Shown here piece by piece: positions 26,178 through 44,607 of a DNA stretch of 64,000 nt. The position numbers and the translations under genes are program-made. Source of the DNA: Methylorubrum populi (lineage in GTDB: Bacteria; Pseudomonadota; Alphaproteobacteria; Rhizobiales; Beijerinckiaceae); NCBI GenBank assembly GCA_020741775.1, contig DYYG01000013.1, positions 62,001 to 126,000 of the forward strand, read 5' to 3'. Under the pieces are notes generated by a model. It saw nothing but the letters and a program-made list of their open reading frames with translations, ran no database searches and was not told the origin of the DNA. Position 1 is the stretch's first letter; every line of letters starts with the position of its first letter.

Positions 26178-26255
26178 CGGTGGTTCCTTGGGTCGGTGCC
26201 TAGCCCGGATCGGACCGAGACGCTCGACATAGCGGCTGAAATCGACGCTTGCAAT

Positions 26256-26269: not shown

Positions 26270-26285
26270 TTTTATAACGACGGCT

Positions 26286-26852: not shown

Positions 26853-26864
26853 GGGAGCGGACGG

Positions 26865-27659: not shown

Positions 27660-27664
27660 CCCTC

Positions 27665-27748
27665 ATGCTCGCCTTCGAGATCGCCGCCCTGTTCCTGACC
27701 CCGGCGTCCGTCCTGTTCGCGGCCGTCGTCGCTCCCCGTCTTCGTTGA
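27665..27748 (+). CDS. Possible 27-residue membrane peptide
   Basis: ATG five bases after the EEP stop encodes MLAFEIAALFLTPASVLFAA and a short basic tail, a single hydrophobic helix. Coding is suggested only by position in the operon and the composition; it may be chance. Confidence 0.25.
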   Translation: MLAFEIAALFLTPASVLFAAVVAPRLR

Positions 27749-27888
27749 TCCCCCGGGATTGACCACCGCGAGGCAATCGCGAATAAGCCTCCCACGGTAA
27801 TGGTGTCTGCCGGGCCTTGAGCCGAACCGCCGATCCCTGATGCGGCTGATGACTCCTACTCTTCGCAATTCTGCGAACGGGAGGAGTC

Positions 27889-29283: not shown

Positions 29284-29293
29284 AGGAGTCGTC

Positions 29294-29737
29294 ATGACCC
29301 CGTCGCATCGCATCGTCGCCACCGAGACCGGCATGGTCCGGATATACCTGAGGCCCCGGGACAGGGCCGGGACGAGGCGCGCCGGATGGTTCCCGGGTGG
29401 CAAGCCGCTCTATCGGGAGTTGGTCGCCCAGGCCAAGGCGGAGGGGCTCATCAACGCGGTCGCGCACCATGCCCACCACGGCTACAGCAACCACGGCCCC
29501 GTCCTCGACGACGGTGCGGAGTCGGCCAATCCCGAACTGACGATGTTCGTCGAGCTGATCGGGAGCCGCGAGACGCTCGAACGGTTCTGCGCGCGGCATG
29601 GTGCCCACCTTGCCGGCAAGGTGATCGTCTACAAGCGCCTGGAACACTGGACGGTCGGAACCATCACCGCAGTCCAAGGTCCCGGGATGGCACCGGATGC
29701 GGCGACCGCGCCGATCCCCCGGACGTGCGCGATCTAG
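29294..29737 (+). CDS. DUF190-family protein
   Basis: A 147-residue protein with the DUF190 ferredoxin-like core: MVRIYLRPRDRAG, GGKPLYRELVAQAKAEGLINAVAHHAHHGYSNHG, LTMFVELIGSRETLERFCARHG and GKVIVYKRLEHW. Members resemble PII-like signalling proteins and often sit next to CrcB or ClC fluoride exporters. The His-rich insert HHAHHGYSNHG is unusual and could bind a metal. The C-terminal 20 residues are nonconserved. Confidence 0.82.
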   Translation: MTPSHRIVATETGMVRIYLRPRDRAGTRRAGWFPGGKPLYRELVAQAKAEGLINAVAHHAHHGYSNHGPVLDDGAESANPELTMFVELIGSRETLERFCARHGAHLAGKVIVYKRLEHWTVGTITAVQGPGMAPDAATAPIPRTCAI

Positions 29738-29798
29738 GAAACGCGACGGTTTCGCCGGAGAGGGACGGGATCATGTTTGCCGACGCTTCTGGGGTTGG

Positions 29799-30545
29799 TC
29801 AGTAGACCCCGATCAGCTTGCACCCGGCCACGACCAGAACGAACCCCAGGGCCTTGAGGATCACATTCGTGGGAAGCCTGATGCCGAGGGTGGTGCCGAC
29901 GACGGCACCAAGCATCACCGCCGCGATATAAAGGGGCAGGTCCGAGGGAAGCGCCCCGACCGATGCGACGTTGCCGAGCAGGCCGAACGCCGAGATCACG
30001 AGAATGAACGCCGCAGCCACCCCGGAAGCGGCCTTCACGTCCGACCAGCCGGCGAACATGAGCAACGGCGAAAGGAAGATGCCCCCGCCCGTTCCCGTGA
30101 GGCCGGATAGGAGCCCGATTCCGGCGCCGCACAGGATGGCCACCGGCACCGGGGGGTCGGACCACCGCACGGCGCTCCGGATCGGCGTCGGCCAGAGGAG
30201 GCGAACGGCTCCCAGAAGGAGCACGACGCCCACGAGGGGCCGGTAGAACTCCCCCGGGAGCTTGATGGAGCCGCCCAGCAGCGCCAGCGGCATCGCCCCG
30301 ATCAGGTAGAGCCACAGCGTCCGCCAGCGGAACTGACCGGCCCGGATGAACCTCCACGAGGTGAAGGTCGCCACGATGACGTTGAGCACCAGCGCAGTTG
30401 GGCGCATCGAGGTCGATGCTACACCAAACAGGGCCATCATGGCGATGTAAGCGGATGCCCCTGCGTGGCCGACACTGGTGTAGAGCGCCGCCCCTACGAA
30501 CATGCAGGCGGCCAAGGCCAGTTCTGAACCAATCGAGGAGAGCAT
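29799..30545 (-). CDS. TauE/SafE-family membrane transporter
   Basis: A 248-residue anion-exporter-family protein with eight hydrophobic segments. Signatures: GAALYTSVGHAGASAYIAMMALFGV at the start and LLSGLTGTGGGIFLSPLLMFAGWSDVKAASGVAAAFILVISAFGL in the second half. It is the last recognisable conserved gene before the Tn7-like region. Convergent with DUF190 (61 bases between stops). Confidence 0.87.
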   Translation of the reverse strand: MLSSIGSELALAACMFVGAALYTSVGHAGASAYIAMMALFGVASTSMRPTALVLNVIVATFTSWRFIRAGQFRWRTLWLYLIGAMPLALLGGSIKLPGEFYRPLVGVVLLLGAVRLLWPTPIRSAVRWSDPPVPVAILCGAGIGLLSGLTGTGGGIFLSPLLMFAGWSDVKAASGVAAAFILVISAFGLLGNVASVGALPSDLPLYIAAVMLGAVVGTTLGIRLPTNVILKALGFVLVVAGCKLIGVY

Positions 30546-30813
30546 TATCCTCCCCTAACGGATCGCCTTTGGCTCTGAAAGTCAGCCTGACAGCTTTCAA
30601 TCACTTACTGGTACAGTGTCGTGATAGATCGTATCCAAGCGCGACAGCGATGGCCGCTTCCCCGCCTCTGCCGCTCGGAAGCGGACAGGCAGAAATCCAC
30701 CCAACCCGGACGTGCTTCATCGCCCCGTCAAGCCGCAGCGAAGCAGACCTTCAGCGAGTCTATGAAGGGCCGTGGGCGGTCTCTATGGTTATATCAGCTT
30801 CATACATCCGCCG

Positions 30814-31224: not shown

Positions 31225-31659
31225 TGCGCGAAGGCAAAGCTTCGGCGCATCATCGCAGAAGTCGCGAAGAGAAGGCTCCGATGACCCGGTTCGAGCTTAC
31301 ATCGACGTTCCTTTCGGAACGTATCCTTAAGGCCTAAGTGCCGCGCTCGAACTCTATTGGGTAGGCGCGCCTACAGGCCCCTACCGATACTTCCCACTTG
31401 GAACAACAAAACACCGCGCTCAGACCGCGCCTCATCCTTTCAACGGGATGAATGATCTGCGTGTCCGAAACGACCATTCCGTAATGGTCGAGCCGGGCTC
31501 GAAGACTGCCAGCCCCGACGGACTTGCAACCCGGTCAGATCACCAAGCTCCACGCCCTGAGCGTTCTCTGGAATTGGCCTCGCCGCGTGGCGAAGCCACG
31601 CCCGAAGGCCGTTCGAAATGCGCCTGGAGGCTACCTGCGATCACATAGGAGGCAATGGA
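31225..31659. other. Noncoding stretch dense in hairpins and palindromes
   Basis: No credible gene. It holds ACGTTCC-TTTC-GGAACGT (31,305-31,322), the 14-base palindrome GTAGGCGCGCCTAC (31,361-31,374), CGACCATT-N4-AATGGTCG (31,471-31,490) and GCGTGGC-GAA-GCCACGC (31,585-31,601). Together with the 20-base sequence at 31,279 shared with the other flank, this could be a transposon end region, a leader for the small ORFs downstream, or both. Confidence 0.5.
31279..31298 (+). repeat. Long-range inverted repeat, left copy
   Basis: CGATGACCCGGTTCGAGCTT. The minus strand at 41,977-41,958 reads the same with one change (A for G at position 17). The pair encloses the tns genes and small ORFs, 10.7 kb apart. 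Confidence 0.55.
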
Positions 31660-31917
31660 ATGAGCTCGCAGACAAATGGTTCTCGGCGGCCACCGCGGGC
31701 AAACCGGCCCACGGGTCCACCAAGGCCGTGGACCCGTCGAAGGCCTCAGTGCGCGATCCAACGTGATGAAAGGGACGAAGGCGATGCATCCGAAACGGCT
31801 AGACCCAACCGCAACGGCTCGAGCGAGAGGCCCACCATGAGAAAGCAAAGAAGTCGTCCTACGGACCTCCCGGTCCCCAGACGCCAGCCGTCCTGGTTCG
31901 AAGGAGCAGTGAAATGA
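31660..31917 (+). CDS. Small Arg/Pro-rich ORF with strong ribosome-binding site
   Basis: An 85-residue frame whose ATG follows AGGAGG with seven bases of spacing; an ATG five bases earlier is dead (stop after two codons). The product is rich in Arg, Pro and Ser and ends SWFEGAVK. Its last third lies in the first copy of a 138-base tandem repeat. Its stop overlaps the next start (ATGA). The coding case rests on the RBS and coupling; the peptide is otherwise low-complexity and could instead be a leader. Confidence 0.45.
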   Translation: MSSQTNGSRRPPRANRPTGPPRPWTRRRPQCAIQRDERDEGDASETARPNRNGSSERPTMRKQRSRPTDLPVPRRQPSWFEGAVK

Positions 31918-32117
31918 GACCCTTGGTGATCGGGAGTCGATGGCCAAGCCGGCGGGCCCGAGCACGGGACCCACCATGCACAAGCACCGAAGCCGTCCGC
32001 CGGACGGTCCGGCCCTTGTCCCTAGCCCTCATGGTTCGAAGGAGAAGCGAAATGAGACCCTTGGTGATCGGGAGTCGATGGCCAAGCCGGTGGGCCCGAG
32101 CGCGAGGCCCACCATCG
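31831..32117. repeat. 138-base tandem repeat, about two copies
   Basis: CCCACCAT recurs at 31,831, 31,970 and 32,108, and ATGAGACCCTTGGTGATCGG at 31,914 and 32,052, giving a period of 138-139 bases. Each copy contains an SD-like GAAGGAG just before ATGAGACCC, so the repeat duplicates a translation start. The first interval has one extra base, which shifts the frame between copies. Confidence 0.85.
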
Positions 32118-32168
32118 CCCGGGGCAGCCTCGCTGCCAACGGGAGATCTGCAACAGCATACCGCTTAG
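31914..32168 (+). CDS. Small ORF carrying the tandem repeat
   Basis: An 84-residue frame starting at the ATG that overlaps the previous stop, with GAAGGAG seven bases before it. Residues 1-21 (MRPLVIGSRWPSRRARARDP and one more) are repeated 46 residues later, reflecting the 138-base DNA repeat. An alternative frame (from 31,940) gives a more ordinary-looking peptide with its own repeat around DRESMAKP, so which frame, if any, is translated is open. Confidence 0.35.
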   Translation: MRPLVIGSRWPSRRARARDPPCTSTEAVRRTVRPLSLALMVRRRSEMRPLVIGSRWPSRWARARGPPSPGAASLPTGDLQQHTA

Positions 32169-32184
32169 GAAGGAGTACTACATC

Positions 32185-32316
32185 ATGATGCGCCATCGTC
32201 ATTCCGCGGCTCCCGCGGAGATCAACCGTCCCGCCGATGTCGACCATTCGTTCACAGCGCCTGCGTTTCCGCAGATCCGCGAAGCGGGGTCGTATAGGGC
32301 GAGTATCCCATCGTGA
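32185..32316 (+). CDS. Small ORF, 43 residues, strong ribosome-binding site
   Basis: AGGAAGGAG lies nine bases before an ATG at 32,185 (a second ATG follows at once). The peptide starts MMRHRHSAAPAEINRPADVD and ends YRASIPS. It is the last of the inward-reading small ORFs on the left side, mirroring those before tnsA on the right. No homologue recognised. Confidence 0.45.
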   Translation: MMRHRHSAAPAEINRPADVDHSFTAPAFPQIREAGSYRASIPS

Positions 32317-32463
32317 AACCCGGGCTTGAAAAGGACCTGGCACCGGCTTTCGCTTCTTCCGCGACGTGTCGGTGCCGGGCTCGCCTCCTTCCCCGCCCAA
32401 ACCGCCGCCTCCGCGCTGATCGCATCCGGCGACCGTTCGGACGGGGGAGGAACTTCTGTCCCA

Positions 32464-32754
32464 CTACGCCTTCGGTGGCTTCCTGCCGAAGGCTTTTCGG
32501 ACGTCGACATGCGCTCCAGCCGCGCCATCGGAGACGAAATGGCTCAACAGAACGATGCCCCCTTCAATCTTCTCCGAGACGACGCCGAGAGGTGCGGACA
32601 CATCGTACCTGCGACATCGCCGGAGGGTAGGGAGGCTGAGTTGCGCATTCCCGGCGCAAGGCTCGATCGCCCGAATTTTCACGGCAGTCCGGATGTGATC
32701 GATCCGTTCGGCGTCATCACCGGAAAGGAGCGCAAGCGCATCGGCCAAAGACAT
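32464..32754 (-). CDS. Hypothetical protein divergent from tniQ2
   Basis: A 96-residue minus-strand frame starting MSLADALALLSGDDAERIDH with protein-like composition and codon use. It is divergent from the second tniQ, with 40-80 bases between starts. No motif recognised and the RBS is weak, so this could be a chance frame in a region that otherwise has no credible gene. Confidence 0.38.
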   Translation of the reverse strand: MSLADALALLSGDDAERIDHIRTAVKIRAIEPCAGNAQLSLPTLRRCRRYDVSAPLGVVSEKIEGGIVLLSHFVSDGAAGAHVDVRKAFGRKPPKA

Positions 32755-32793
32755 ATCGTCGAGGCAGGCGATCGAGGCGGAGCGAGCAACTCT

Positions 32794-34416
32794 ATGACTT
32801 GGCCGAAAGGACGAAATCCGTCCGCCGCGCTTATGTTGAGATACGCCCCCGACGCAGGTTCGGCGAGATCGTCGTGGACCTGCAGAAAAGCTCCGCTACG
32901 CCTTCGCAGCCATGGAGCGGGGGAGCCGGCCTACTCGTTCCTTCATCGTCTGGCGTCCCGAAACGCCTACGGGGCCCGTGAATTCGCCGACGCCTACAAC
33001 CTCGATTTTCGAGCGCTCCTTTGGGGAGACCGGACAGAGGTAGGTCGCCTTTCGGCGGTGGCGGATGTCGATGCGGCCTCGCTCCTCGTCGCAACGCCGG
33101 CACGTGCAAGGTCCAGAATCTGGATCGTAAGTGGTGAACGATTGACAGCCCAGTATATCGAGCGGGGCCGTGACCGCATCTGCCCGGCCTGCGTAGCCGA
33201 AGATCGAATCGCCACGCCTGGAGAGAACGGTTTCGGCATCCGCCGCCGGGTCTGGTGGGATCTGACATTCCTTCACCACTGCCCGATTCATGAGATCCCG
33301 TTGCGTGGATTAAGGTCCGAAGCTCCGGGCGTTTTGGAGGGCACTGCGGATACGGACGCGGAGAACGGCTACGGGTGGGAGGCCTATGTTCTTGGACGGC
33401 TGGGTTTCACACAGCGGACCGAAGCCCAGCTTCTCGACCAGCTCAGCCTAAGGGCTACCGTCGACTTGGTGGCAACGTGCGGTGCGGTCGAACTGCACGG
33501 AGTACCCAGCAAGGCGCGACGTTTGCACATCGAACATGGTGCAAACGCGATGCGTTCCGGCTTTCGGGTCGCACGGAGCAAAAACTCCTTCGTCGATTTT
33601 CTTTGGCGTCGCAGAGGTGAGGACGCCGACTGTTTGATGGCAGAGTTCTTCGGACTGTTGCACGTCAGATCCATTCATTCTCGTAGCTTCGAGGAGCCGG
33701 ACGTTGCAAAGCTCGTTAGACTTTTCGCGGCCGAAGAGAAGCTTCGGCAAACACTTCTTAGACAGGCTGCCGACGCAATGGACCAGACTCCCGCCGAAAT
33801 GGTAGGGAATAATTCCTTCTGGATTTCAGCCACCAATCTTTATCTAGAATTAAATTCTAATAAAATTCCTATTATTTCGAGACCGGACTATGGATGCATT
33901 CCACTTATCCAGGCGCTTCGATCGGAAATAGGATCGATGAGGGTCTTCGAGGCGCTTATCGATGGTCGGTTGCTGCCTAAATGCCAAGTGCGTAGCTTTT
34001 CAGGACTATGCTCGATCTTCGTTTCGAAAGCCGATATCGATCGTATCGGGGCTCCGAAGGAAAAAACGAAACCTCCGTTGACGGCTGAAGTGTTTGGCAG
34101 ACGGTTGAACATGCACGTCAAAAACGTCAGGAAGCTTGTCTTGCACGGTATTGTTAAGAAATCCGATAGACAGGCCGATCGATGTTACATCATTGACGAG
34201 AGCGAATTCAAAAAATTCGTTCAGACGTATGTTACCGCCCGTAGAATTGCTTGGGCCCTAAAAACCGACGCCTGTCTGATTAAGCAGATGTTGCACGAAA
34301 AATACGGAATAGAAGGCGTGCTTCCGAAGGAGGCCGGGGTGAGCTTATTCCGTCGGTCGGATCTACTCCGTGTCGGGCTGCCTGCGCCCGAGATGCAGAT
34401 TGCCTCCGGCGACTGA
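32794..34416 (+). CDS. TniQ/TnsD-family target-selection protein (second copy, tniQ2)
   Basis: A 540-residue frame from the ATG at 32,794 (another start at 32,833; frames further upstream do not look protein-like). The TniQ core is at residues about 34-175: PLRLRSHGAGEPAYSFLHRLA and a zinc-binding set RICPACVAED (Cys130, Cys133) with HHCPIH (Cys163, His166). The C-terminal part has helix-turn-helix-like segments (AEVFGRRLNMHVKNVRKLVLHG). TniQ proteins link the AAA+ TnsC to a target. The 3' half is notably AT-rich. Its end overlaps the other tniQ by 54 bases tail to tail. Confidence 0.85.
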   Translation: MTWPKGRNPSAALMLRYAPDAGSARSSWTCRKAPLRLRSHGAGEPAYSFLHRLASRNAYGAREFADAYNLDFRALLWGDRTEVGRLSAVADVDAASLLVATPARARSRIWIVSGERLTAQYIERGRDRICPACVAEDRIATPGENGFGIRRRVWWDLTFLHHCPIHEIPLRGLRSEAPGVLEGTADTDAENGYGWEAYVLGRLGFTQRTEAQLLDQLSLRATVDLVATCGAVELHGVPSKARRLHIEHGANAMRSGFRVARSKNSFVDFLWRRRGEDADCLMAEFFGLLHVRSIHSRSFEEPDVAKLVRLFAAEEKLRQTLLRQAADAMDQTPAEMVGNNSFWISATNLYLELNSNKIPIISRPDYGCIPLIQALRSEIGSMRVFEALIDGRLLPKCQVRSFSGLCSIFVSKADIDRIGAPKEKTKPPLTAEVFGRRLNMHVKNVRKLVLHGIVKKSDRQADRCYIIDESEFKKFVQTYVTARRIAWALKTDACLIKQMLHEKYGIEGVLPKEAGVSLFRRSDLLRVGLPAPEMQIASGD

Positions 34417-36252
34417 GATCGAGCCTCGCTCGACGCCGTCCGGTGCTCGTCGGAGTATGTCGACGACGCTGCGTTCGTAGAGTCTGATTTCGATTCGGTC
34501 GCCGAGAGCGAGTTCGATCGCCGGCCGGCAGCCTCGTTCCGCAAGTCTGGATAGGATGGTTCTAGCACTTGTGCGGAAGGAGCGGGAAAGTTCCGTCGTC
34601 GAGACGTAGCGGATTTGGAAGCTCGCGACATCAGCCCGATCAAGCAGTCGCAGGCGTCTGGCATCCTTTATGGTCCGGATGTGTCCGGCGGCGACGATCA
34701 GATCGAGACCGTTCCTTCGCATGCCGAGTGTCCTGCCTGCCTCCAGAGGCCCTATCCAGGGGTCGTTCCTGGCCCGTGAGAGTTCCGCGATACCGACCGA
34801 ACGGATTCGGATGCCTGCAAGGCCTGGGGCCCCGGCGATCCGCGCAGTAGCAACGATCCGCCCATCTAGGATCGCGCGGCAAAGCGCGACGATTCCGACC
34901 TTGCGGGCGGCGCGGACGATCGAAACGGAGTCCGGTGGAGGAACCTCCACGACGGGCGCGTTGCCCTGCATACGATCGAGGATCGCATCGACCTCGATCG
35001 GATCGAATCTCGGATGTCGGAAGGCCGCGATAGCCAATCGGTCGCGTGGAAGAATGCCCGCGGCGACCAGCTTGCGGACGGAAGCGGGAGTGATGCCGAG
35101 CGTGCCTGCCAGGATATCGACATTGATGAAGCGTCCGACGCGCCTGGCGAGCATCTCGACCTGTCGCCGGTCGACGGTCGGTCGGCATCGCTCGTCGACG
35201 TCCCTCCTTAATCCGGCTGCTTCCAGGATCGCAACCGTCCTACCCCAGCCGGCATCGAGGCAAGCCTTGGCCCTGCTAGCGGATATACGATCCGGCGTCG
35301 GTGGTTCGACGACATGCCGCTCCCAGCCCTGCCAGCTCAGCTGATTCCGCGTCACGACGTTCGCGATGCGGGTTGCTATCCAAGACTGGAGTTCGCCATC
35401 CGGCAGAGCGGCGAACCAGCTGTAGAGCTGCCCGAGTTGAACTCGAAGTCGATCCGGCCTGCCCGGGGCGGCCAATAGGGCATCAATCGTCTTCTCGATG
35501 CCCTCGTTGCCCGTCCGGATGGCGTGAAAGCCGGCCAGCATCATAGCTGGCCGATCGGCGGGATCCGTCTTGCCGAATCTGGCGTCGCGGCCGGCGGAAA
35601 CGCAGCAACCGAGCCTCTGCATCAGGGCAATGGCATCACAGAGCGGCAGGGTGTCCAGGATGGCGTGCGGCACCCTCGAGCATCCTCCAAGCCGCCCGAC
35701 CACGTAGGCGTCGGCGGCGGTGGCATGCGCCTCGACGACGATCCGGGTACTGCGGGCAAGATTGGCGCCGCAACGACAGACCGTCACGCGCCCGCCAGCC
35801 AATCGGATGGTGCGATCGCACTGTAGGCAACGGTCGTTCAAGCGCACATTGTGAATAGGACAGACCGAAACGGCTGCGACCGACCACCAGCATCGCAGAT
35901 GTCGCAGCGGGAACTGGCCGCCGGTCTCGCCTGCGGCGTCATCGGCCCAGCACGCGACACAGTAGCACTGACGTTCATAGAAGACTTGAGCAGGTTCCAG
36001 CTTCTCGCCGTTCAGTGAGATGTGGCCATCCCGCATCCGCCGTGGAGAGTATCGATCGATTCCGTCGACCATTCTGCGCCCAAGAATCGGCACCAGGGCA
36101 CGCGTATCGCCGCGGGCGAGGAGCGTCGTCGAAACGCCCAGGCTGGCGAACGGATTCGACCGCCAGTCGCAGCCGTTCGCCTCGGCCAGTCGGCGAGCGT
36201 AGCCGCTTGCCGGCTCGCCGGGGATATGACGAGGACGTATCGGAAAGGTCAT
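34363..36252 (-). CDS. TniQ/TnsD-family target-selection protein (tniQ1)
   Basis: About 629 residues from the ATG at 36,252 (AAGGTGG upstream); a start at 36,270 would add six residues. N-terminal TniQ domain: PIRPRHIPGEPASGYARRLAEANG, zinc ligands CVAC..CPIH (near residues 98-134) and a second pair CLQC...CRCG (near 142-161). The long C-terminal region has repeated HTH-like units (ILAGTLGITPASVRKLVAAGILPRD; EAGRTLGMRRNGLDLIVAAG), as in TnsD-type proteins that bind a specific attachment site. It follows tnsC directly, giving the canonical tnsABC-tniQ order. Confidence 0.9.
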   Translation of the reverse strand: MTFPIRPRHIPGEPASGYARRLAEANGCDWRSNPFASLGVSTTLLARGDTRALVPILGRRMVDGIDRYSPRRMRDGHISLNGEKLEPAQVFYERQCYCVACWADDAAGETGGQFPLRHLRCWWSVAAVSVCPIHNVRLNDRCLQCDRTIRLAGGRVTVCRCGANLARSTRIVVEAHATAADAYVVGRLGGCSRVPHAILDTLPLCDAIALMQRLGCCVSAGRDARFGKTDPADRPAMMLAGFHAIRTGNEGIEKTIDALLAAPGRPDRLRVQLGQLYSWFAALPDGELQSWIATRIANVVTRNQLSWQGWERHVVEPPTPDRISASRAKACLDAGWGRTVAILEAAGLRRDVDERCRPTVDRRQVEMLARRVGRFINVDILAGTLGITPASVRKLVAAGILPRDRLAIAAFRHPRFDPIEVDAILDRMQGNAPVVEVPPPDSVSIVRAARKVGIVALCRAILDGRIVATARIAGAPGLAGIRIRSVGIAELSRARNDPWIGPLEAGRTLGMRRNGLDLIVAAGHIRTIKDARRLRLLDRADVASFQIRYVSTTELSRSFRTSARTILSRLAERGCRPAIELALGDRIEIRLYERSVVDILRRAPDGVERGSISVAGGNLHLGRRQPDTE

Positions 36253-36276
36253 GGCTACCCACCTTCTCATTCGATC

Positions 36277-37485
36277 TCATACCGTCCTGGCCGTTTTCTC
36301 GTAGGTGGGCGCCGACGGTTTGCCCGATAGGGAGCCGCGTGTCCGCGACGGCCGCTGCACGCGGCGGCGAGGGGCCTGTTCGTTCTTGGAAGCCTGAGGC
36401 TGGAAGGGGTTCGATTTTTCTCCAGAACGCTTCAAGGTTTCGTGCGCATAGGCGAGATATCTGTCGGCCACGTGCATCACGCCATCCTCCAAACCATGCT
36501 CGAGCGCGATCAGGATCAGGCGCGTGACGCGGCCGAGGATGCCGCCAGTGGACGCATGAATTCGGCCGGCCCGCTTCGGATCCGAAAGGTTCGACGCCTC
36601 CGGAAGGTCCATGCCCTCTTCCAGATCCGCCAGAAAATCGAGGAACTCCTGCCGGTGTTCGATCTCGCTACCCCAGCTGAACGGTTCTACCGGAAACCGC
36701 ATGCGGCAACGGCGGTCCAGCTGCGGATTGGCGTCCACCGGGCGTGCGGCCTTCTGCATGCCGCTCAGCACCAGCTGCACTCGGGTCTCGACGAGCAGAT
36801 CCTTGACGAGTTCAGACAGCTCCTCGACCAGTTCGTCGCGGGACGAGACGGTGTGATGGAACTCGTCGATGAACAGAAGGCGGGTTTTCTGTCCGACGAG
36901 TTGCATCCTCAGTCGGTCGAGGATCTGATGGCCGTGGAGCGCCCTCGGCACCTCGGCACCCAGAGCCCGAAGGATCTGGGTCGCGAGGGCATTGGTGGAC
37001 CGGGAGCTCGAGGCGTTGACGAAGACGATCGGCCGCTCGTCGCCGTCGATGCCGTCCGTCAACACGAGCCCGTAGTTGCAGATCTGCGGAATCCGCCCCG
37101 TTGTCCGTACGATCCGCTGATATTCACGCCGGATCCATTCGCGTTGAATGGTCGACTTGCCGGTCCCGGAGGCTCCCGTGATCAGCAGGAGCTGGCCCGG
37201 TTCTCCACGATCGTAGGCGCGCCGGGACCGCTCGATGGCCTTGATGCCTTCGATCAGATCCACGTGGTTGTCGATGAGAACGTGCCGTGCCCTGGTCAGC
37301 ATGGCCTCGGCCTCGTCGGTCAGGAGATCCGTGGCGTCGCCGGTATCCTGGCCGACGTCGCCGTCGTCGAGGCCCGAGATCAGATCGATCTCACACTCGA
37401 GGACCTCGTCGGCGTCCGAGGTATGGAAGGCTGCGTCAGCTGAATGATGCAATGCGGAAGTTCCTTCTGCGGCGGGTCGGGACAT
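36277..37485 (-). CDS. tnsC: Tn7-like AAA+ ATPase TnsC (TniB family)
   Basis: A 402-residue ATPase: Walker A GASGTGKS (residues 104-111), Walker B LLFIDEFH (203-210), then a sensor-type QLVLSGMQ (about residue 239). In Tn7-like systems TnsC forms an ATP-dependent filament on DNA that carries the target signal from TniQ to the TnsAB transposase. Its first 50 bases overlap the end of tnsB. The first 55 residues are acidic and not conserved, and the C-terminal 45 are basic. Confidence 0.94.
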   Translation of the reverse strand: MSRPAAEGTSALHHSADAAFHTSDADEVLECEIDLISGLDDGDVGQDTGDATDLLTDEAEAMLTRARHVLIDNHVDLIEGIKAIERSRRAYDRGEPGQLLLITGASGTGKSTIQREWIRREYQRIVRTTGRIPQICNYGLVLTDGIDGDERPIVFVNASSSRSTNALATQILRALGAEVPRALHGHQILDRLRMQLVGQKTRLLFIDEFHHTVSSRDELVEELSELVKDLLVETRVQLVLSGMQKAARPVDANPQLDRRCRMRFPVEPFSWGSEIEHRQEFLDFLADLEEGMDLPEASNLSDPKRAGRIHASTGGILGRVTRLILIALEHGLEDGVMHVADRYLAYAHETLKRSGEKSNPFQPQASKNEQAPRRRVQRPSRTRGSLSGKPSAPTYEKTARTV

Positions 37486-39751
37486 CGACGGCGTTCGCGG
37501 ACGCTGCCGACGGCATCTCGGGCTTGATGTTCACGGGCGAGACCGGGAACTCTCTGACGGCGCCGACGACTGCGGGAGGATTTTCCGCGTCTTCGACGAT
37601 CCGAATTTCGGCAGGCTTGCGGAGCGGCGCCGCGCTCGCGATCGGCCGTCGGGGCGGCCGCTGCGCCGAGTGATCGACGACCTTCTCCGGCCGACGCGGC
37701 CTCGCACGAATGGGGGATTCGTGCGCTAGATCCGACTCGTCATCATCGCGGTACTCGATGTCGTCGAACGCGATATGTGTCGTTTCGGGATCTATCGCCT
37801 CGATGTACGTCGCCTTCATCTCGGCCAGGTTGTCGACTTCCTCGACCAGAAGGCGCGCCTTTCGACTGCTGATCCTCTGCGCGGCGCGTTTGTTGTTCCG
37901 TGCCTCCGCAGGAGCGTAGAGACGTCGCTTCGCGGCATCCATGTCGGGCTGGTGGACGCGTTCATGCCTCTTCTTGCGCGATCGCGCTTCGGCTCGGATA
38001 ACCAGATGATCGTGTACCGGGCGGCCGCGGGCCGCAGGGTCCGACGCGGCGAGTACGATCCATTCGCCGTCGACAAGCAGGTAGGCTCGTCCGACGTCCA
38101 ATGCGTCGATCCGCATCCTGTACTGGCGTTTGCCCGGTCCTTCTCGGTTCAACAGCTCCTGAAGCGCCTCGGAGCCGAAGCCGTAGAAGAGGTTCATCCA
38201 TTCAACGCCGGTATGCTGGATCGTAACCTTTTCCTGGACTTTCGAGACAAGCGGAACGAGATGATCGATCGAGGGCGCCATCTCCGGATGACGGATGTTG
38301 GAAAGCCTTCGCCACGCGCCGGCGGGACTGTCCTCGATGCCGCTTGCCCACTCTTGCATCCAGACGTCGGCAACGAACTTGCAGACGATCCAGTTGACCT
38401 GTTCCATGGTCATCTCGACATGGTCCCCGGCGCGATAATCCGAGAAGCGATCGCCGTTCTTGAACAAGCTGCCGGGCATTCCGGCGAACATGCCTTGCTT
38501 CGACGTTAGAAATTGTCGTTCGACGATGCCCTTGAGATCCGGCGCTCCTGCAGGCGTATGCTTGAGACGGATGTTCAGTTGGCCGCACGTGACGACGAGA
38601 TCGTTTGAGCGATAGTCCGACCCCTGGTCAGTAAATACGACGCTGGGTTTTACGGTGGCCAAATACTCGTTCGTGATGCCGTCCAATTTAGACATCCAAG
38701 TCTTCGGCATCATCGTCATCCGGAGAGCCTCCTGGATGGTCGCAAAGCCTTTTTCCAGACCGACGTACCATCCCACGATCGCACGCGTCGCCAGGTCGAT
38801 GACGACGGTCAGCGTGACCTGTTTGAAGGTCAAACCCGTGGCGGGGTCGCGTACGACCATCGGCAGTTCCGTCGAGTCGATCTGAACTGCCTGGCCGATC
38901 CACTCGTAGCGGGGGCCGAGGGCCTTGATGCGATGCCTGTGTTTCGATTTCTTCGCATCGCCGCGATAGATCTCGGTCTCCAGGGACCCCATGCTGCGAA
39001 TTATTTTATAGAAAGACTGTATATTAGGAATAATTCCTGCGATGTCGTCTTCCGGCACGCCGGCTTTCCGGGCAACGACGCGGATTTCGTCGCGGACATG
39101 CGGGAAGATCTTCGACGCCTTCGGCTGTTCGCGCTGCAGGTATTGATTGCGCGCGAACTCGTTCATGACCTTGACTGCAATGGGAGACAACCGGGGAACA
39201 CGGTTGCCCTGGCGATGGCTCTGGGGGACCAGCGCCGAGCGAAGGCCGCCCGAGAGCTTGTAGCGGCGGTACCACTGGATCAGCGAACCGCCGCACGGCG
39301 CCTGCGAGACGCCGCCGGGCTCGATCTGCCTAGCCCAGCGCTTGCACCACCAATCGAGTTCCTTCGCCTTCAATACGATGTGCCGGTTCTTGCGCTTCCG
39401 GTCAGGGCGATTTGACGTGACGCGGCGGCCATCGCGCAATTCGATCGCGAATTCCAGAAGGCGGATATATTTGGCCCGGCGGATCGCCTCCGACTGCTGC
39501 TGCTCGGTGAAGCCCGAGATGTCTCGGCGCATGTCCTCGATGAGCGTTGCAGGCAGTCCCTTGCAGGGCTCGGGCTCGATCCGCATCCGTCGATCGACCC
39601 ATAGCATGACCAGTTCGTGCCAGCTGTGCGCCTTGGCCGGACCACCATCGATGGGTCGAAGCGCGATACCGTCCTCCAGTGCAGTCGTCGGCAACCAGCG
39701 AAGGTCGTCGATCACCACGATATCTCGGTTGGTCAGCTTGAACGGACCCAT
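37436..39751 (-). CDS. tnsB: Tn7-like transposase TnsB (TniA/Mu family, DDE)
   Basis: A 771-residue DDE transposase. Catalytic triad as seen: Asp292 (AVQIDSTELP), Asp375 (VVFTDQGSDY) and Glu411 (LKGIVERQF), with 35 residues between the second Asp and Glu. N-terminal HTH DNA-binding segments (about 70-270) precede the rve core, and a Mu-transposase C-terminal beta domain and a long tail that should contact TnsC follow. It cleaves and joins the 3' ends of the element. Length is above Tn7 TnsB (702). Confidence 0.95.
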   Translation of the reverse strand: MGPFKLTNRDIVVIDDLRWLPTTALEDGIALRPIDGGPAKAHSWHELVMLWVDRRMRIEPEPCKGLPATLIEDMRRDISGFTEQQQSEAIRRAKYIRLLEFAIELRDGRRVTSNRPDRKRKNRHIVLKAKELDWWCKRWARQIEPGGVSQAPCGGSLIQWYRRYKLSGGLRSALVPQSHRQGNRVPRLSPIAVKVMNEFARNQYLQREQPKASKIFPHVRDEIRVVARKAGVPEDDIAGIIPNIQSFYKIIRSMGSLETEIYRGDAKKSKHRHRIKALGPRYEWIGQAVQIDSTELPMVVRDPATGLTFKQVTLTVVIDLATRAIVGWYVGLEKGFATIQEALRMTMMPKTWMSKLDGITNEYLATVKPSVVFTDQGSDYRSNDLVVTCGQLNIRLKHTPAGAPDLKGIVERQFLTSKQGMFAGMPGSLFKNGDRFSDYRAGDHVEMTMEQVNWIVCKFVADVWMQEWASGIEDSPAGAWRRLSNIRHPEMAPSIDHLVPLVSKVQEKVTIQHTGVEWMNLFYGFGSEALQELLNREGPGKRQYRMRIDALDVGRAYLLVDGEWIVLAASDPAARGRPVHDHLVIRAEARSRKKRHERVHQPDMDAAKRRLYAPAEARNNKRAAQRISSRKARLLVEEVDNLAEMKATYIEAIDPETTHIAFDDIEYRDDDESDLAHESPIRARPRRPEKVVDHSAQRPPRRPIASAAPLRKPAEIRIVEDAENPPAVVGAVREFPVSPVNIKPEMPSAASANAVDVPTRRRRNFRIASFS

Positions 39752-39839
39752 AGCTTACCTTCGGTGTTCGCGCTTCGTGCGGTGCATCTTTTAGGAAGAT
39801 CGACTGTCGCTATCTTCCGAACCGGATCGCTCGACTCGT

Positions 39840-40589
39840 TCAAACTGCACGCTGGTCGGCAGCTGGATCTCGGATCACGCGGACGGAGCGTACGAGGGCT
39901 CGATCGTCAATCGGCTTCTCGAGGTCGAGTGCGACCTCGCGAAGTATGTGAAGACGCAGAACGGCGCCGAGCGTCCGTCCACCGATACCACTGGCTTCCT
40001 TGATCTGTGCGATCGTCTTCACCGTTCGAGGAGCATTTCGCAGTACCTCTCGCACGCGGTCGAGGGCTTCGACGTCCTCCCTGGGACCACAATGCTCGAA
40101 CAACAGCTCGGCATTGCCGAAGACCGGCTGACGGCGGATCTCCACTTCGGTCCAAACCTCGAAGGGGAGGTTCTGACGATGAAATTCGTCAGCGATCAGG
40201 CCAAGTTCCTCGGCCAGCACGTCTGCTTTGACCTTGGGTTTGACTTGCACATAGATCGGCCGCGAACAGCCTCGGCGCACGACTGCGAAGTCGGGAATGT
40301 GGACGCGCCATTTGCGCGAGCGCAAATCGAACCAGTCCACCTTTCGCGGCTGCGGGCGAACTTCCGTGGTGATACCATCCGAGCGGGTCAGGACGAGAAA
40401 ATCATGCTCGAGCAAAGACTCGAACTCGATGATGCCCTCGAAGGACGTGCCGTCGGTCCTTGATGCGCCCATCAGGTTTTCGAGGTCGAACCACGGAACG
40501 ACGCCGCAGAAACTCGCGCGGTTCGTCTTCCTGCTTGCTGCGCGTACTCCGGTTATCCTCTGTAATTCCTTAGGACGAAAAGCGATCAT
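39840..40589 (-). CDS. tnsA: Tn7-like endonuclease TnsA
   Basis: A 249-residue endonuclease that cuts the 5' strands of the transposon so it moves by cut-and-paste. Catalytic set in the usual spacing: FESLLEHDF (Glu57), HIPDFAVV (Asp100) and VQVK (Gln115, Lys117). A C-terminal HTH-like segment (IAQIKEASGIGGRTLGAVLRLHIL) should contact TnsC/TnsB. Its ATG overlaps the stop of a 95-residue ORF by four bases, and tnsB begins 88 bases downstream. Confidence 0.92.
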   Translation of the reverse strand: MIAFRPKELQRITGVRAASRKTNRASFCGVVPWFDLENLMGASRTDGTSFEGIIEFESLLEHDFLVLTRSDGITTEVRPQPRKVDWFDLRSRKWRVHIPDFAVVRRGCSRPIYVQVKPKVKADVLAEELGLIADEFHRQNLPFEVWTEVEIRRQPVFGNAELLFEHCGPREDVEALDRVREVLRNAPRTVKTIAQIKEASGIGGRTLGAVLRLHILREVALDLEKPIDDRALVRSVRVIRDPAADQRAV

Positions 40590-40873
40590 CGTCGTCGTTT
40601 CCTTCTGTTGATCGGACGCGAATGGAAGCAGTGCTGCGACTGGTCGCTCGATCGAGCGACCAAACTATCGATCGGGAGTATCGTGCGGGATGCCGGCCGC
40701 CTGCGCGCGATCGCCGGCGCAGCGGCAACTCGTGGTGGTGGAAGGCCGGACATCGATCGGCCAGCAGACGGTTCCGACGTTTTGGAGTGCCAGTTGGCAT
40801 TCCCGTCGAACATCTCCGGGGTCGAGGGTGCGCCCCATCCATCGATCTTGGGTGTAGGAATTTCGTCGTGCAT
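40586..40873 (-). CDS. Small ORF coupled to tnsA, 95 residues
   Basis: ATG at 40,873 follows CAGGAGGATCACG, a very strong ribosome-binding site, and the stop overlaps the tnsA ATG (ATGA). The sequence begins MHDEIPTPKIDGWGAPSTPE and ends in an Arg-rich tail (INRRKRRR). No family recognised. The coupling makes real translation likely; it may be an accessory subunit or a leader controlling tnsA synthesis. Confidence 0.7.
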   Translation of the reverse strand: MHDEIPTPKIDGWGAPSTPEMFDGNANWHSKTSEPSAGRSMSGLPPPRVAAAPAIARRRPASRTILPIDSLVARSSDQSQHCFHSRPINRRKRRR

Positions 40874-40949
40874 CGTGATCCTCCTGGGATGTTGGCAAGG
40901 TCCTGCCGCGGATCCCGTCCCCTGGCGACGCCGGGGACGGGGCATGCGT

Positions 40950-41120
40950 TCAGCTTAGAAAGCCGTCGTCGGACCACGGCTTGCGCCGCATGCCCGTTGT
41001 CCCGATCATCGGATCGGCGACTGATAGTCCTTCGAACTCGGGATCCAACAATCCGAAGTAAGACTCGCAGACTTCGAAGTTGGACTTCATCCGAAGCCGC
41101 CCGGCATAGGTTTTTGCCAT
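40950..41120 (-). CDS. Small ORF upstream of tnsA, 56 residues
   Basis: ATG at 41,120 preceded by GAGGAGATATCC. The peptide begins MAKTYAGRLRMKSNFEVCES and ends KPWSDDGFLS. It is second of three closely placed small ORFs reading into tnsA. Too short for the usual gene-finding cut-off; good RBS and ordinary amino-acid composition argue that it is real. No homologue recognised. Confidence 0.65.
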   Translation of the reverse strand: MAKTYAGRLRMKSNFEVCESYFGLLDPEFEGLSVADPMIGTTGMRRKPWSDDGFLS

Positions 41121-41304
41121 GGATATCTCCTCAAGAGGGTGTTTTCAAAAGATCGTCTCAGATCTCCGGCAAGTCTAGGGATGCAGCCCGATAATCGCCT
41201 GGAGTTTCTAAGCTGCTGTTGATAGAAGCGCTAGGTCGTTGAAACTACATGGCGTTCCAATGGCTTCTGATCTTCGATCGAGAGCGGAGGCGTTAGATGC
41301 GGTT

Positions 41305-41478
41305 TTAGTTCGGCATCTCTTCGCCCGGCCACGTCTCGCAACGTACGTGCGGCGTCGGCTCTACCGTCAGATCTTGAGCGAACGGCCGGTCTGGATCGAT
41401 CTTCCAAGGATCGACTCTGAGGCTGTCGGTCCGAGGACGATCGTTGTAGAGATACGTTGCGACGAGATTTCTGGCCAT
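41305..41478 (-). CDS. Small ORF, first of the tnsA-upstream set, 57 residues
   Basis: ATG at 41,478 preceded by GAGGAGTGATCG. The peptide begins MARNLVATYLYNDRPRTDSL and ends ETWPGEEMPN, acidic and proline-containing. It lies about 65 bases after a palindromic sequence that may be the operator of the whole small-ORF/tns operon. Function unknown. Confidence 0.65.
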   Translation of the reverse strand: MARNLVATYLYNDRPRTDSLRVDPWKIDPDRPFAQDLTVEPTPHVRCETWPGEEMPN

Positions 41479-41540
41479 CGATCACTCCTCTTCCAAGCTC
41501 GAATCGAGCGCGTTGGTATCCAGATCGAAAGGAAGTCCAA

Positions 41541-41578
41541 TCAAGTATTTGCCAAATTTATATTCGACAGATACTTGA
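41541..41578. promoter_or_regulatory. Large dyad upstream of the small-ORF/tns operon
   Basis: TCAAGTATTTGCC (41,541-41,553) and GACAGATACTTGA (41,566-41,578) are inverted with 11 of 13 positions matching, in an AT-rich stretch containing TATAAAT on the minus strand. A regulator such as the HTH protein at 43,115-43,435 could bind here. Confidence 0.5.
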
Positions 41579-42155
41579 TCTGCGACCCAATCGGCCAAGG
41601 GCGAATATCGAGCGCTGCTCCGGTCCGGATCGAGTCCGGAGCGCGCGAATGAGATTCGGCCAGATCTCGGAGTCCGGCCCGCGATGACGGAGACGGATCC
41701 AGAGAATTCGAATGTTCGGGTGATGCTGAAAGTCCGGACAGGGAGCGGCCGGGAATTTCGAGCGTCGGGAGCCTCGACCGATATGCTATGGTCGTCTGGC
41801 GGTCCGCCGGTACCAGCCTATTGAGAGCTAGTTCACCGTGCGCCGGTGGCGCGGGAGGTGCGGAAGAGTCGCTGGCCGGCTGAGCGCCGGCCCTGTCCGG
41901 ACAGGGGTTCGACGGTCGGCCTCAAGCCTGATGCGCAAGCTTCCGCATGACTGGTGGAAGTTCGAACCGGGTCATCGAACGGGTCCTCAAGGCAACTTTT
42001 TGGAGGATGCCTTCAGACCCCTGTCCGCTACAAGCGCTTTTTCAGATCTTGCCGTGACATCGTTATCTATCTTTTGCCAACAGCATTCAACAAATGTGGA
42101 AAATTGCGCCTATAATTGCAGGCAAGGCCACAGCCGCGCTCAAAGTGACGAAACC
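41579..42155. other. Noncoding stretch with stacked hairpins, possible structured RNA
   Basis: No credible gene in about 575 bases. It contains GGCCGGC-N5-GCCGGCC (41,874-41,892) touching the 16-base palindrome CCCTGTCCGGACAGGG (41,891-41,906), whose half GTCCGGACAGGG recurs at 41,732, and the right copy of the 20-base long-range repeat. On the minus strand a promoter-like TTGTTG/TAGATA pair lies at about 42,065-42,095. A small RNA or long leader is possible. Confidence 0.4.
41958..41977 (-). repeat. Long-range inverted repeat, right copy
   Basis: Minus strand CGATGACCCGGTTCGAACTT, matching 31,279-31,298 at 19 of 20 positions; 16 in a row are identical. Confidence 0.55.
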
Positions 42156-42785
42156 TCAAACGAAGGTTGCGCGCATCGTTTCTCGTTCCGGAGGCTGGGA
42201 CCGCGCCGCGCTTCGGATCGGCGTATCCGGGGCGAGATGCGACCCGAACTCGACTTCAGCCTGGCCTGAACAGACCAGGGCAAGAACGATGTCCACCGGG
42301 TCGGAATCGTTGCTTCTCACGCATTCGATGAGGCGTCCAAGAGGAGCCCCGCCGGGACTCTCGGACAATTCTCGTAGGATTCTGATCCGATCGCCTGGGG
42401 GGATTTGCGTCGTTCGAGTGGCCCAGATCTGCCGCGCCACGGAACATCGCGGTTCGTCCAGTACGGTCGAACGATCGAGGGTGAGCGCATCCGGAAGCGA
42501 AGCGTGGACGCCGAGGTCGATCGCGTTCCGGACTGCGACAAGGAGCCGACGGCGACCTTCGAACCAGACTAAGACTTTGAATGAATCCAGCGACTGACGC
42601 GCAGCCGGAACGGGTTCGATGAAGGAAATGCTCGGGTCCAGCGTGGCCTGGATCAGCAGGTCGCGGTGCCAACGCTGGGGGTAGAAAACCGCCGACGTGG
42701 TCTTGAACGACCGGAAGCCGGGGCGATCTGGTTTCGTCTCGATCCCCGCGGGTAAGAAGACCGGGGACTTTGGTCGTGGCGACAT
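42156..42785 (-). CDS. Unknown protein, possibly a degenerate TnsA-like protein
   Basis: About 209 residues from the ATG at 42,785 (GTGGAG upstream; earlier in-frame ATGs lack an RBS). The segment YPQRWHRDLLIQATLDPSIS followed by KVLVWFEGRRRLLVAVRNA has the spacing of the TnsA N-terminal fold, but the catalytic Glu, Asp and Lys are not at the expected places. If related, it would be a nuclease-dead partner of the active TnsA encoded downstream. This comparison was by eye and is weak; the gene itself is likely real. Confidence 0.5.
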   Translation of the reverse strand: MSPRPKSPVFLPAGIETKPDRPGFRSFKTTSAVFYPQRWHRDLLIQATLDPSISFIEPVPAARQSLDSFKVLVWFEGRRRLLVAVRNAIDLGVHASLPDALTLDRSTVLDEPRCSVARQIWATRTTQIPPGDRIRILRELSESPGGAPLGRLIECVRSNDSDPVDIVLALVCSGQAEVEFGSHLAPDTPIRSAARSQPPERETMRATFV

Positions 42786-43114
42786 TGACGCGACTCCACT
42801 TCGAGTCCGATCGGAAACGCGGATCCGCACCATGGCGGCTACTCGTCGACCGGGGGTTCCGAGGGTTGCCACGCCTGCATCGATCGTAGAGGTCGTTGTC
42901 TTGGACCTCGGTCAGGCGTCGATGTTCGAAGCTTGAAGCTGGAACAATCGGACTATGAAGGCCAAAATGGCCTCTCACAATAGGATTTTTGCAGTTTCCT
43001 GAGTTCTGTGAATGTCGGCACCAACTTTGGCAATGAGTATTTTTGCAGCCGTAATATTAATGAGATTGTGCCTCTGCGGGTTTCAAGGACGTGAAGGTTG
43101 ATACAAAGTGACAT
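42786..43114. other. AT-rich intergenic region with short repeats
   Basis: Contains two direct repeats, CAATAGGATTTTTGCAG (42,978-42,994) and CAATGAGTATTTTTGCAG (43,031-43,048), and an inverted pair CTGTGAATGTC (43,006-43,016) and GACATTCACAG (43,110-43,120). Multiple spaced short repeats near a TGT/ACA border are what TnsB-binding ends look like, but an operator region for the adjacent genes is equally possible. Confidence 0.5.
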
Positions 43115-43120
43115 TCACAG
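43006..43120. repeat. 11-base inverted repeat pair
   Basis: CTGTGAATGTC at 43,006-43,016 and its exact complement GACATTCACAG at 43,110-43,120, 93 bases apart. The right copy overlaps the last codons of the HTH gene. Confidence 0.7.
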
Positions 43121-43435
43121 CGCACCGTTTTTTGCCAGCCAAGCTTTTACGCTCCGAACGAAGGCGTCGCGACGCTTCATTCCGGCGGCAAGACACAGAT
43201 GATCGAGTTCTGCCGCAACGGCGACGCAGAAGTCCGTCGGTTCGGTTCGTTCGATCGGAAACTCGAAGGGCTTTTCCACCCGCGCCATGAGGTCCAGAAG
43301 GCGGACCACTTCTTCGGGAGGCCCGGAAGCTGCCCAGTTGTGGACCGTACGGAGAGCAACGCCATTTTCCCGCGCGAAGCCCACCTGGGTTCGGTCGAGC
43401 AGTTTCAATCTGCTTTTGAAGTCGGATCCGTTCAT
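43115..43435 (-). CDS. Small HTH DNA-binding protein
   Basis: A 106-residue protein with an N-terminal Cro/XRE-like helix-turn-helix: FKSRLKLLDRTQVGFARENGVALRTVHNWAASGPPEEVVRLLDLM (residues 6-50). The C-terminal half is helical with Cys residues and a lysine-rich end. It probably represses or activates the neighbouring genes; the dyads at 41,541 and 43,006 are candidate sites. The ATG has a weak RBS. Family beyond HTH not recognised. Confidence 0.7.
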   Translation of the reverse strand: MNGSDFKSRLKLLDRTQVGFARENGVALRTVHNWAASGPPEEVVRLLDLMARVEKPFEFPIERTEPTDFCVAVAAELDHLCLAAGMKRRDAFVRSVKAWLAKNGAL

Positions 43436-43671
43436 GCGGAGCGTTCAAGGAACCGACGTTCGAGACTGTGACCCGTCGGCAGGATGCCACCGCGAGGCCA
43501 TTCCTTCCAGTGGCATTGTTGCCTCTTTCGACACAAGGAACGCTTCCGACCGGACGCATAGGTACCCGAGCTTCGACGGCGTCGTCCTAGACTCCGCGTC
43601 GGACCGGATTTTTGCGATTTTCAAGGCTTTTCGCGACCCTCCCGATTCGGCTTCTCGCGGAGGCGCAAACC

Positions 43672-44607
43672 ATGTGGAACGACGGTTCGACAATCAGTGT
43701 CGGCAACGGTTCGGACGTCGTCGCCATCGACGATCGCACCAGCGAACTTTCGCATGTGGAGGGCGACCGTTGGGTCTCCATGAAGGCGATATCCAGATTG
43801 CTAGGCATCAACCATCACGGACAGTTGGCCGAAGCCTGGGACTGGTTGGTTGCGATGACCGAATGCGGACGCACACCCGAGATCATGGGGCAACCCATCC
43901 GCATGGCGGTGACAACCATTCGCGGGCGAGACTGGTGGTGCATGCACGAAGACGACATGCGTCGAGTCGCAGGATCCTTCCACGCTTTCGTCGGGACCTT
44001 CCAGTCGATCTTGGACCGGAAGTATGCCCGGCGCGATCCCATCGAGCATTCCGAGTGGTTGGGCTACCGTGCGGTCGCCGGAACGTTGCCAATGGAGAAC
44101 CCCGAGACGCTCCTCAATTCGGTCTGGCAGCATCTGCAACGCGAATATCGCGGCGGACGCGTTCCACGTCTCGGCGACCACGAGATCCGGATGCGGTACT
44201 TCGCCGGCGACAAAGGGCGCGCCATTCATATCCACCGGGACGACGTCCGATTTCTGGACCAGAACATTCATGAGGACGGCAGCTGTTTCACGCTGAGGGA
44301 CGTAGTCGATCACTTCCGAGATCTGGACGAATGGATGGGCCTTCACGCCGAGCGCCTGATGAAGGAGGTCCGAACGGGATTTGGCACGACCGGCCGTCTC
44401 GCGCTTCGTGGTATTCCGCTCGCGACCGTCCGGGTTCCGACGGAGAGAGGCTTGATGTTACGCATCCATCGTTCGTCTCTCTCCATCGTGGCGAGGATCA
44501 TCGACAACGATTGCACCAGCGTGGTGCGAGAGGACTTCGACGATATTCCGGAGTTCGAGGTAGATACCGATGTACGGTCGGCCTTCTCGATGCAGGCAGG
44601 GTTCTAA
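43672..44607 (+). CDS. Unknown 311-residue protein
   Basis: ATG at 43,672 with GGAGG eight bases before it. A possible HTH lies at residues 35-60 (VSMKAISRLLGINHHGQLAEAWDWL). The rest includes Trp/His-rich segments (GRDWWCMHEDD; KGRAIHIHRDDVRFLDQNIH) without a recognised fold. It is divergent from the HTH gene and has the lower-GC codon use of the Tn7-like region, so it is probably cargo or an accessory factor of the element. I do not recognise its family. Confidence 0.6.
   Translation: MWNDGSTISVGNGSDVVAIDDRTSELSHVEGDRWVSMKAISRLLGINHHGQLAEAWDWLVAMTECGRTPEIMGQPIRMAVTTIRGRDWWCMHEDDMRRVAGSFHAFVGTFQSILDRKYARRDPIEHSEWLGYRAVAGTLPMENPETLLNSVWQHLQREYRGGRVPRLGDHEIRMRYFAGDKGRAIHIHRDDVRFLDQNIHEDGSCFTLRDVVDHFRDLDEWMGLHAERLMKEVRTGFGTTGRLALRGIPLATVRVPTERGLMLRIHRSSLSIVARIIDNDCTSVVREDFDDIPEFEVDTDVRSAFSMQAGF

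Follow-up and report, generated by a model that had tools for sequence, protein, structure and literature searches.

A Tn7-like transposon with two long TniQ proteins inserted in a gene transfer agent cluster of Methylorubrum populi

The window analysed here, 64,000 nucleotides of the Methylorubrum populi assembly GCA_020741775.1 (contig DYYG01000013.1; C13:62001-126000 of a 4.7-Mb genome coded G000), carries the core of a Tn7-like transposon in which tnsA, tnsB, tnsC and a first tniQ gene (tniQ1) lie on one strand and converge with an intact second tniQ gene (tniQ2). Coordinates are those of the window unless a contig is named. The core module comprises the following genes:

32539-34416, + strand: tniQ2, 625 aa; ATG with a GGAG motif, the presumed start in a frame open from 32326
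34363-36270, - strand: tniQ1, 635 aa, likely homing factor; tail-to-tail 54-bp overlap with tniQ2
36277-37485, - strand: tnsC, AAA ATPase, from Pfam and Walker motifs
37436-39751, - strand: tnsB, DDE transposase, from its catalytic triad
39840-40589, - strand: tnsA, endonuclease with intact E/D/K, from residues and alignment

Order, strands and coordinates, together with the second tniQ and all catalytic residues assigned in a first-pass annotation made from the letters alone, are confirmed. Both TniQ proteins match Pfam PF06527 (TniQ) above the cut-off, at 3e-14 for the plus-strand gene and 9.6e-9 for the minus-strand gene, and each bears a zinc motif (CVAC..CPIH in TniQ1, CPAC..CPIH in TniQ2). 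TnsC matches AAA_22 (5e-19) and TniB (2e-18) and displays Walker A GASGTGKS and Walker B LLFIDE. TnsB matches the Pfam integrase core (7e-6) and the NCBIfam IS481 transposase (4e-12), both under the curated cut-offs, and its residues D292/D375/E411 are invariant in 7 aligned sequences; TnsA matches Tn7_TnsA-like_N (1.6e-4) and an NCBIfam TnsA-like family (1.6e-7), likewise under the cut-offs, with E57/D100/K117 invariant in 8 aligned sequences. The gene copies of the window are free of internal stops, and all seven genes tested against the closest relative show a dN/dS below 1 (0.02 to 0.69, tniQ2 highest).

Comparison of G000 with uninterrupted relatives places the ends of the element 71,284 bp apart, from a left tip at 10002 to a right tip at C13:143285. 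The interval first annotated, 31279-42785, is the core module; the element itself starts at 10002 and runs past the end of the window. The following features define its extent:

9997-10001, no strand: target site duplication CTGCA, left copy (right copy at C13:143286-143290)
10002-10160, + strand: left end, tip TGTAGTGTGACTC and two more GACTC-type repeats (putative TnsB sites, by eye)
10002-64000, no strand: in-window part of the 71,284-bp element (right tip at window coordinate 81285)

The tips begin 5'-TGTAG, are inverted, and are flanked by the 5-bp duplication CTGCA. Both junctions are exact and lie on a single contig: the left reads ..CCCGCTGCA/TGTAGTGTGACTC, that is CTGCA/TGTAGTGTGACTC, and the right reads ..GAGTCATACTACA/CTGCACGG, that is GAGTCATACTACA/CTGCA, the slash marking the boundary. 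The uninterrupted site reads GGGCCCGCTGCACGG in the relative G075, with CGCTGCACGG in G014 and G062 too, and G075, G062, G014, G009 and G048 are colinear across the point at which G000 is split into C13:71677 and C13:143286. Three similar GACTC-type repeats, spaced ~55-60 bp apart by eye, occupy the left end, the right end being less clear. In the G000 genome this TnsB has a single match, and no TniQ other than these two is matched. The first-pass annotation had named tniQ genes from different elements, decay, or a lack of mobile ends as grounds for abandoning its reading; tips, duplication and empty sites are found instead, and by these signs the element is mobile and no remnant. With TnsA, TnsB, TnsC, TniQ, 5-bp duplications and inverted tips all present, it belongs by sequence to the Tn7-like transposons. 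No sign of CRISPR emerges, in line with the first-pass annotation: a simple test (a 20-mer occurring three times at a spacing of 45-95) finds no CRISPR-like array across the 71,284 bp, and 40 selected cargo proteins, a subset of the open reading frames (ORFs), include no cas effector, only Csa3 regulator-family labels.

The left tip interrupts a gene of a gene transfer agent (GTA) cluster, of which the window retains:

9310-9663, - strand: host flank gene, a weak candidate for an Rz-like spanin in the GTA lysis cassette (PHROG 89, E 0.0019)
9814-10001, - strand: C-terminal piece of the interrupted GTA lysis-cassette gene, the remainder running from C13:143286 on, outside the window

The flank gene has no Pfam match above cut-off and is colinear with the empty-site genomes. 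The interrupted gene, positioned after the endolysin and before this weakly Rz-like gene, matches no family above a cut-off. The cluster contains a terminase, a portal, an HK97 capsid, a tail tube, a TIGR02217 'Rcc01695 family' distal tail protein and a TIGR02218 'phage/gene transfer agent baseplate hub', followed by a lysozyme resembling the BgtA endolysin (5.7e-30, below cut-off); its g8 is a tail-completion gene (PF11367), and for the rest of its length the G000 cluster is colinear with the one in G017. Clusters of this kind are conserved relics of phages, and the target, known here from its genes, is a head-tail gene set of GTA type that the genus has retained.

At E 1e-30, TnsB is matched in 19 of 111 genus genomes, eight at 44-100% identity and 11 only through a distant clade (27-28%); the closest named match is from Methylobacterium sp. 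Leaf465 (98% identity). The eight carriers, the window's own genome included, are G000, G060, G022, G003, G043, G096, G073 and G103. All share the order tniQ2 on the plus strand, then tniQ1, tnsC, tnsB and tnsA on the opposite strand, so both tniQs belong to one element, and in the window neither is decayed; the tniQ2 frame of G103 is cut down to 384 aa. Every one of the eight insertions lies inside the GTA cluster, five in the lysis gene beside the endolysin and three in g8. The first-pass annotation proposed to look for copies at two classes of site; the eight insertions fall in one class, the GTA cluster, at two of its genes.

At the lysis site, the duplications are CGCTG in G043, CGGGC in G003 and ACCGT in G060, with junctions on two contigs each, and GCCGA in G022, at the ends of two contigs. 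At g8 they are TCGAG in G103, both junctions lying on one contig (C1:4478691-4598721), CCGAG in G096 (two contigs) and ATCCG in G073 (contig end). In the latter three genomes the module stands at a break inside g8, and the 3' half of the cluster lies 120 kb off on the same contig in G103 and on other contigs in G096 and G073. By hand count from junction reads, the lysis-gene duplications start at -2 (G043), 0 (G000), +10 (G003), +22 (G022) and +37 (G060) relative to G000; those in g8 start at ~272 (G073), 273 (G103) and 297 (G096) in the coordinates of a 601-bp g8 probe. Because the duplications differ in all eight genomes, most or all insertions are independent, six of them clearly separate; hand alignment across diverged sequence puts G073 and G103 1 bp apart, and these two might go back to a single old insertion. 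The five lysis-site copies share one orientation, that of G022 being read from contig-end bases.

Two of these genomes show further detail. In G022 the whole element forms contig C44 (64,801 bp), which starts and stops at the tips; a single T of the tip closes contig C16, and each half of the target lies at the end of another contig. This arrangement may reflect mixed occupied and empty sites or a circular form. In G103, C1:4478691-4598721 is a 120-kb sister element in g8 with damaged tnsB and tnsC frames (a TnsB stop and a split TnsC); C1:4574960 was considered as its right tip and rejected, its flank being without a duplication and the 3' half of g8 standing at 4478691 together with a tip whose duplication matches.

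Probes for the two sites, counted from match lists at E 1e-10, mark exactly the carriers. The 621-bp lysis-site probe matches 73 of 111 genomes, the site being spanned in 68 and split in five, which are the five lysis-site carriers; seven of the spanned genomes (G001, G005, G010, G011, G024, G036, G063) give short matches only, are without a g8 match and may represent a related gene, leaving 61 of 66 spanned. The 601-bp g8 probe matches 91 of 111 genomes, its own included, with 88 spanned and three split, again exactly the three carriers. The non-matching genomes (38 for the lysis site, 20 for g8) are uninformative. Beyond the genus, an order-wide search at E 1e-80 finds relatives in 3 of 397 genomes, drawn evenly rather than exhaustively, all three from this genus. 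In a plasmid collection 3,915 records hold distant homologues, and in none does the match reach 80% of the query; a phage collection gives 4 records at 23%, and viral contigs none; plasmid records matching TniQ1 (5) and TniQ2 (2) are all distant. No close copy outside a GTA cluster is found in the genus genomes or in the plasmid, phage or viral collections. Together, these results make it highly probable that the element is a cut-and-paste Tn7-like transposon whose chromosomal attachment site is the host GTA cluster, to which it appears to home. The tips, the 5-bp duplications, the empty sites and the single consistent target class in eight genomes are established directly; the roles of the individual proteins we infer.

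The first-pass annotation had proposed two targets, one per TniQ, and in its present form this would mean that one element picks between the lysis gene and g8, TniQ1 serving one site and TniQ2 the other. The family does use two GTA sites, every member has two TniQs, and the TnsABC tree places both g8 lineages outside that of the lysis gene (G096 joins the lysis lineage at 0.87 support), so that the change of site could stem from a change of selector. No lineage, however, occurs at both sites: all five members of one class are at the lysis gene and all three of the other at g8, and because the two genes are used by different lineages, no choice by one element is demonstrated. In the joint TniQ tree, run as the first-pass annotation suggested, most TniQ1 and TniQ2 sequences lie on separate sides, G096 TniQ2 being poorly placed; the pair therefore probably predates the split of the lineages, and both long TniQs belong to one ancestral module. 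The C-terminal half of TniQ2 is only 27-31% identical even among same-site elements (85-97% in close pairs), which makes it ill suited as the keeper of a site. The same half of TniQ1 is 53-61% identical among different lysis-site elements, 87-94% in two close pairs and 28-34% between the lysis lineage and the g8 lineages, and between G000 and G060 dN/dS is 0.28 for tniQ1 and 0.69 for tniQ2. Because TniQ1 is well conserved among same-site elements and TniQ2 is not, TniQ1 is by sequence the likelier homing factor and keeper of the GTA site, an argument that holds for one lineage only. A choice between the two GTA genes by one element is unlikely, and the proposal of one target per TniQ is not supported so far, all eight insertions falling in one target class.

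Several observations weigh against homing to the GTA cluster through TniQ1. The g8 insertions occur in both orientations (G096 versus G103/G073), and insertion positions are scattered, over ~40 bp at the lysis gene and over 25 bp at g8; in G000 and G060, whose TniQ1 proteins are 93-94% identical, they are nevertheless ~37 bp apart. Such a spread is looser than TnsD homing. The TniQ1 C-termini of the two g8 lineages (G096 versus G103/G073) are only 28-31% identical, and since these lineages are no closer to each other than to the lysis lineage, use of g8 as target is not mirrored in the sequence of TniQ1. The N-terminal part of TniQ1 is 53-63% identical within the lysis lineage and 37-42% to the g8 lineages; the protein is thus conserved over its full length, and the C-terminus is not singled out. 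A comparison of TniQ1 with solved structures gives nothing useful. Additionally, the junctions lie on separate contigs in six of the eight genomes, where they are paired by their matching duplications and tips, and mobility and homing are read from genome comparison.

The GTA neighbourhood might instead be a general landing strip for islands, associated with the element without target recognition, as the large cargo islands there (71, 65 and 120 kb) could suggest. Among matching genomes, however, only the eight carriers are interrupted, the survey covering these two sites; where TnsB is of the distant clade only (11 genomes), g8 is uninterrupted in 11 of 11 and the lysis site in all 7 matched; and the insertions bear the element's own tips and 5-bp duplications, so that this explanation is already largely refuted and we regard it as very improbable. 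That a degraded, immobile module became fixed near the GTA and was inherited vertically is scarcely credible: its constant place in the cluster, the damage in G103 and in G060 (truncated accessory protein Z) and the possible single insertion in G103 and G073 fit it, but the eight duplications differ, the reading frames of the window are intact, and the G000 and G060 cores, 97% identical, sit ~37 bp apart with different duplications.

Under the favoured reading of a transposon attached to the GTA cluster, TnsA and TnsB would excise the element and TnsC would relay the target signal. TniQ1, a long TnsD-like protein, would recognise a GTA gene sequence and direct insertion there, the gene recognised being the lysis gene in the window's lineage and g8 in the sister lineages. 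Insertion breaks the target gene, with the probable effect that GTA release or tail assembly fails. TniQ2, with its fast-diverging C-terminal half, may serve a second, variable pathway toward plasmids or phages; X, a dead TnsA-like protein, could join the TnsA/TnsC complex in a structural or regulatory role, and the accessory proteins Y and Z could be regulators or accessory DNA binders. A broader proposal, which we put forward tentatively, is that the family is a Tn7-like branch, so far only in Methylobacterium, specialised on GTA genes, in which TniQ1 reads conserved tail or lysis sequence and homing silences the GTA, TniQ2 applies the same chemistry to incoming phages and plasmids, and X makes the donor-cutting complex heteromeric. 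If true, a family homing to GTA clusters gains a lasting address, breaks a gene-exchange system of its host and links two kinds of mobile DNA; as natural paired selectors with one target known to the base, TniQ1 and TniQ2 make the question of which TniQ reads which site directly testable.

Tn7 produces a 5-bp duplication and has tips beginning TGT, both likewise seen in the window's lineage, and leaves glmS intact, whereas here the target gene is interrupted and the insertion register varies over ~40 bp. Shared with Tn7, which TnsD directs to glmS, are the TnsABC core, a long TnsD-like protein and, apparently, site-specific insertion (PMC11406308). Dual TniQ/TnsD loci are common: one survey counts 2,905 loci with a single such gene, 998 with two and 50 with three or more, and in dual loci one TniQ usually exceeds 400 aa, the second being substantially smaller (Faure et al. 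2023, PMC10293859). The present element has in common with the dual loci TnsA, TnsB, TnsC, two TniQ-family proteins and a dedicated chromosomal attachment site, and differs in that both TniQs are ~625-635 aa and convergent and that an extra TnsA-fold protein is present. Many CRISPR-associated transposons also have two TniQs (PMC11406308), unlike this element in the array and cas effectors absent here from the scans described above. Large Tn7-like elements with defence cargo reach 140 kb and integrate into 'safe sites' that leave the attachment site intact (Benler et al. 2021, PMC8649781); the present element resembles them in size and in its defence cargo, an IetA/IetS pair, and differs in breaking a GTA gene. 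A GTA attachment site is not named in the portions of PMC10293859, PMC11406308 and PMC8649781 drawn on, from which a TnsA-fold component without catalytic residues, as added by X, is likewise absent. Searches by title and abstract start for GTA with Tn7-like, TnsD, transposon or genomic island give no paper on the subject within open-licence PMC, a scope that does not prove absence, and a TnsA paralogue gives no literature match within the same collection. The new parts are the dead TnsA-fold X, the small conserved protein and the three-repeat protein; dual TniQ is already known.

The accessory features around the core are:

31262-31412, + strand: conserved block, left copy (GATGACCCGGTTCGA...TCGAACT), ~1.1 kb before tniQ2
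40950-41120, - strand: 56-aa ORF upstream of tnsA, conserved in G060, G003 and G043
41846-41994, - strand: conserved block, right inverted copy, ~1.3 kb before tnsA
42156-42872, - strand: X, TnsA-fold protein without catalytic residues, from model and alignment
43115-43435, - strand: Y, 106-aa conserved protein, possibly helix-turn-helix (weak; PHROG 4779 transcriptional regulator, E 0.024)
43612-44607, + strand: feature without convincing fold match

X is conserved at 38-93% identity. Its model has a mean pLDDT of 73.8 (74-95 by blocks, residues 51 to 220), and its four best PDB matches are TnsA, at modest scores. Matched to TnsA by eye and through a non-significant alignment, X has lost the equivalents of E57, D100 and K117, its invariant residues there being Y-P...W-H-R-D and A-V-R. 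Z shows three repeats in its predicted model and has no fold match. X and Y occur in seven of the eight carriers, the G073 contig stopping at tnsA, and Z in six. The small coupled ORFs first annotated do exist, the 56-aa one being 98% identical in G060 and 48-53% identical over 36-40 aa in G003 and G043.

Each of the five lysis-site elements carries the ~150-bp block twice, and a search of the g8 lineages gives nothing above E 0.1; the inverted pair is perhaps a shared promoter/operator. The block was rejected as the transposon ends, the tips with duplications lying elsewhere, and it is a weak candidate for a structured RNA, with fold z-scores of -1.3 to -2.3 and two-sided change in 4 of 19 predicted pairs; two sub-threshold Rfam matches fall outside it. 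Upstream of tniQ2, 31816-32115 holds a ~139-bp tandem repeat with short open frames.

The left cargo includes an IS110-type transposase adjoining the tip, molybdopterin oxidoreductases, TauE, a chloride channel and ChrB, and the right cargo HlyD/AcrB-type efflux, a P-type ATPase, an arsenical pump and others. An Ietas-type anti-phage pair lies near the right tip at C13:135367-142091 (window coordinates 73367-80091), with IetA an AAA/M41 protein and IetS a subtilase (6.9e-249); a similar AAA/M41 gene stands within the elements of G060, G022, G096 and G103. The G060 element, elsewhere 97% identical, lacks the segments 23324-30697 and 44325 to ~C13:134.8k, a gain or loss of cargo. A left element boundary at 30697, the G060 homology break, and a right one at 44325 were rejected as internal insertion/deletion breaks. 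At 21300-23330, a YeiH-like/histidine-phosphatase cassette recurs at 90-97% full-length identity in many genus genomes on varying contigs and is probably mobile by itself.

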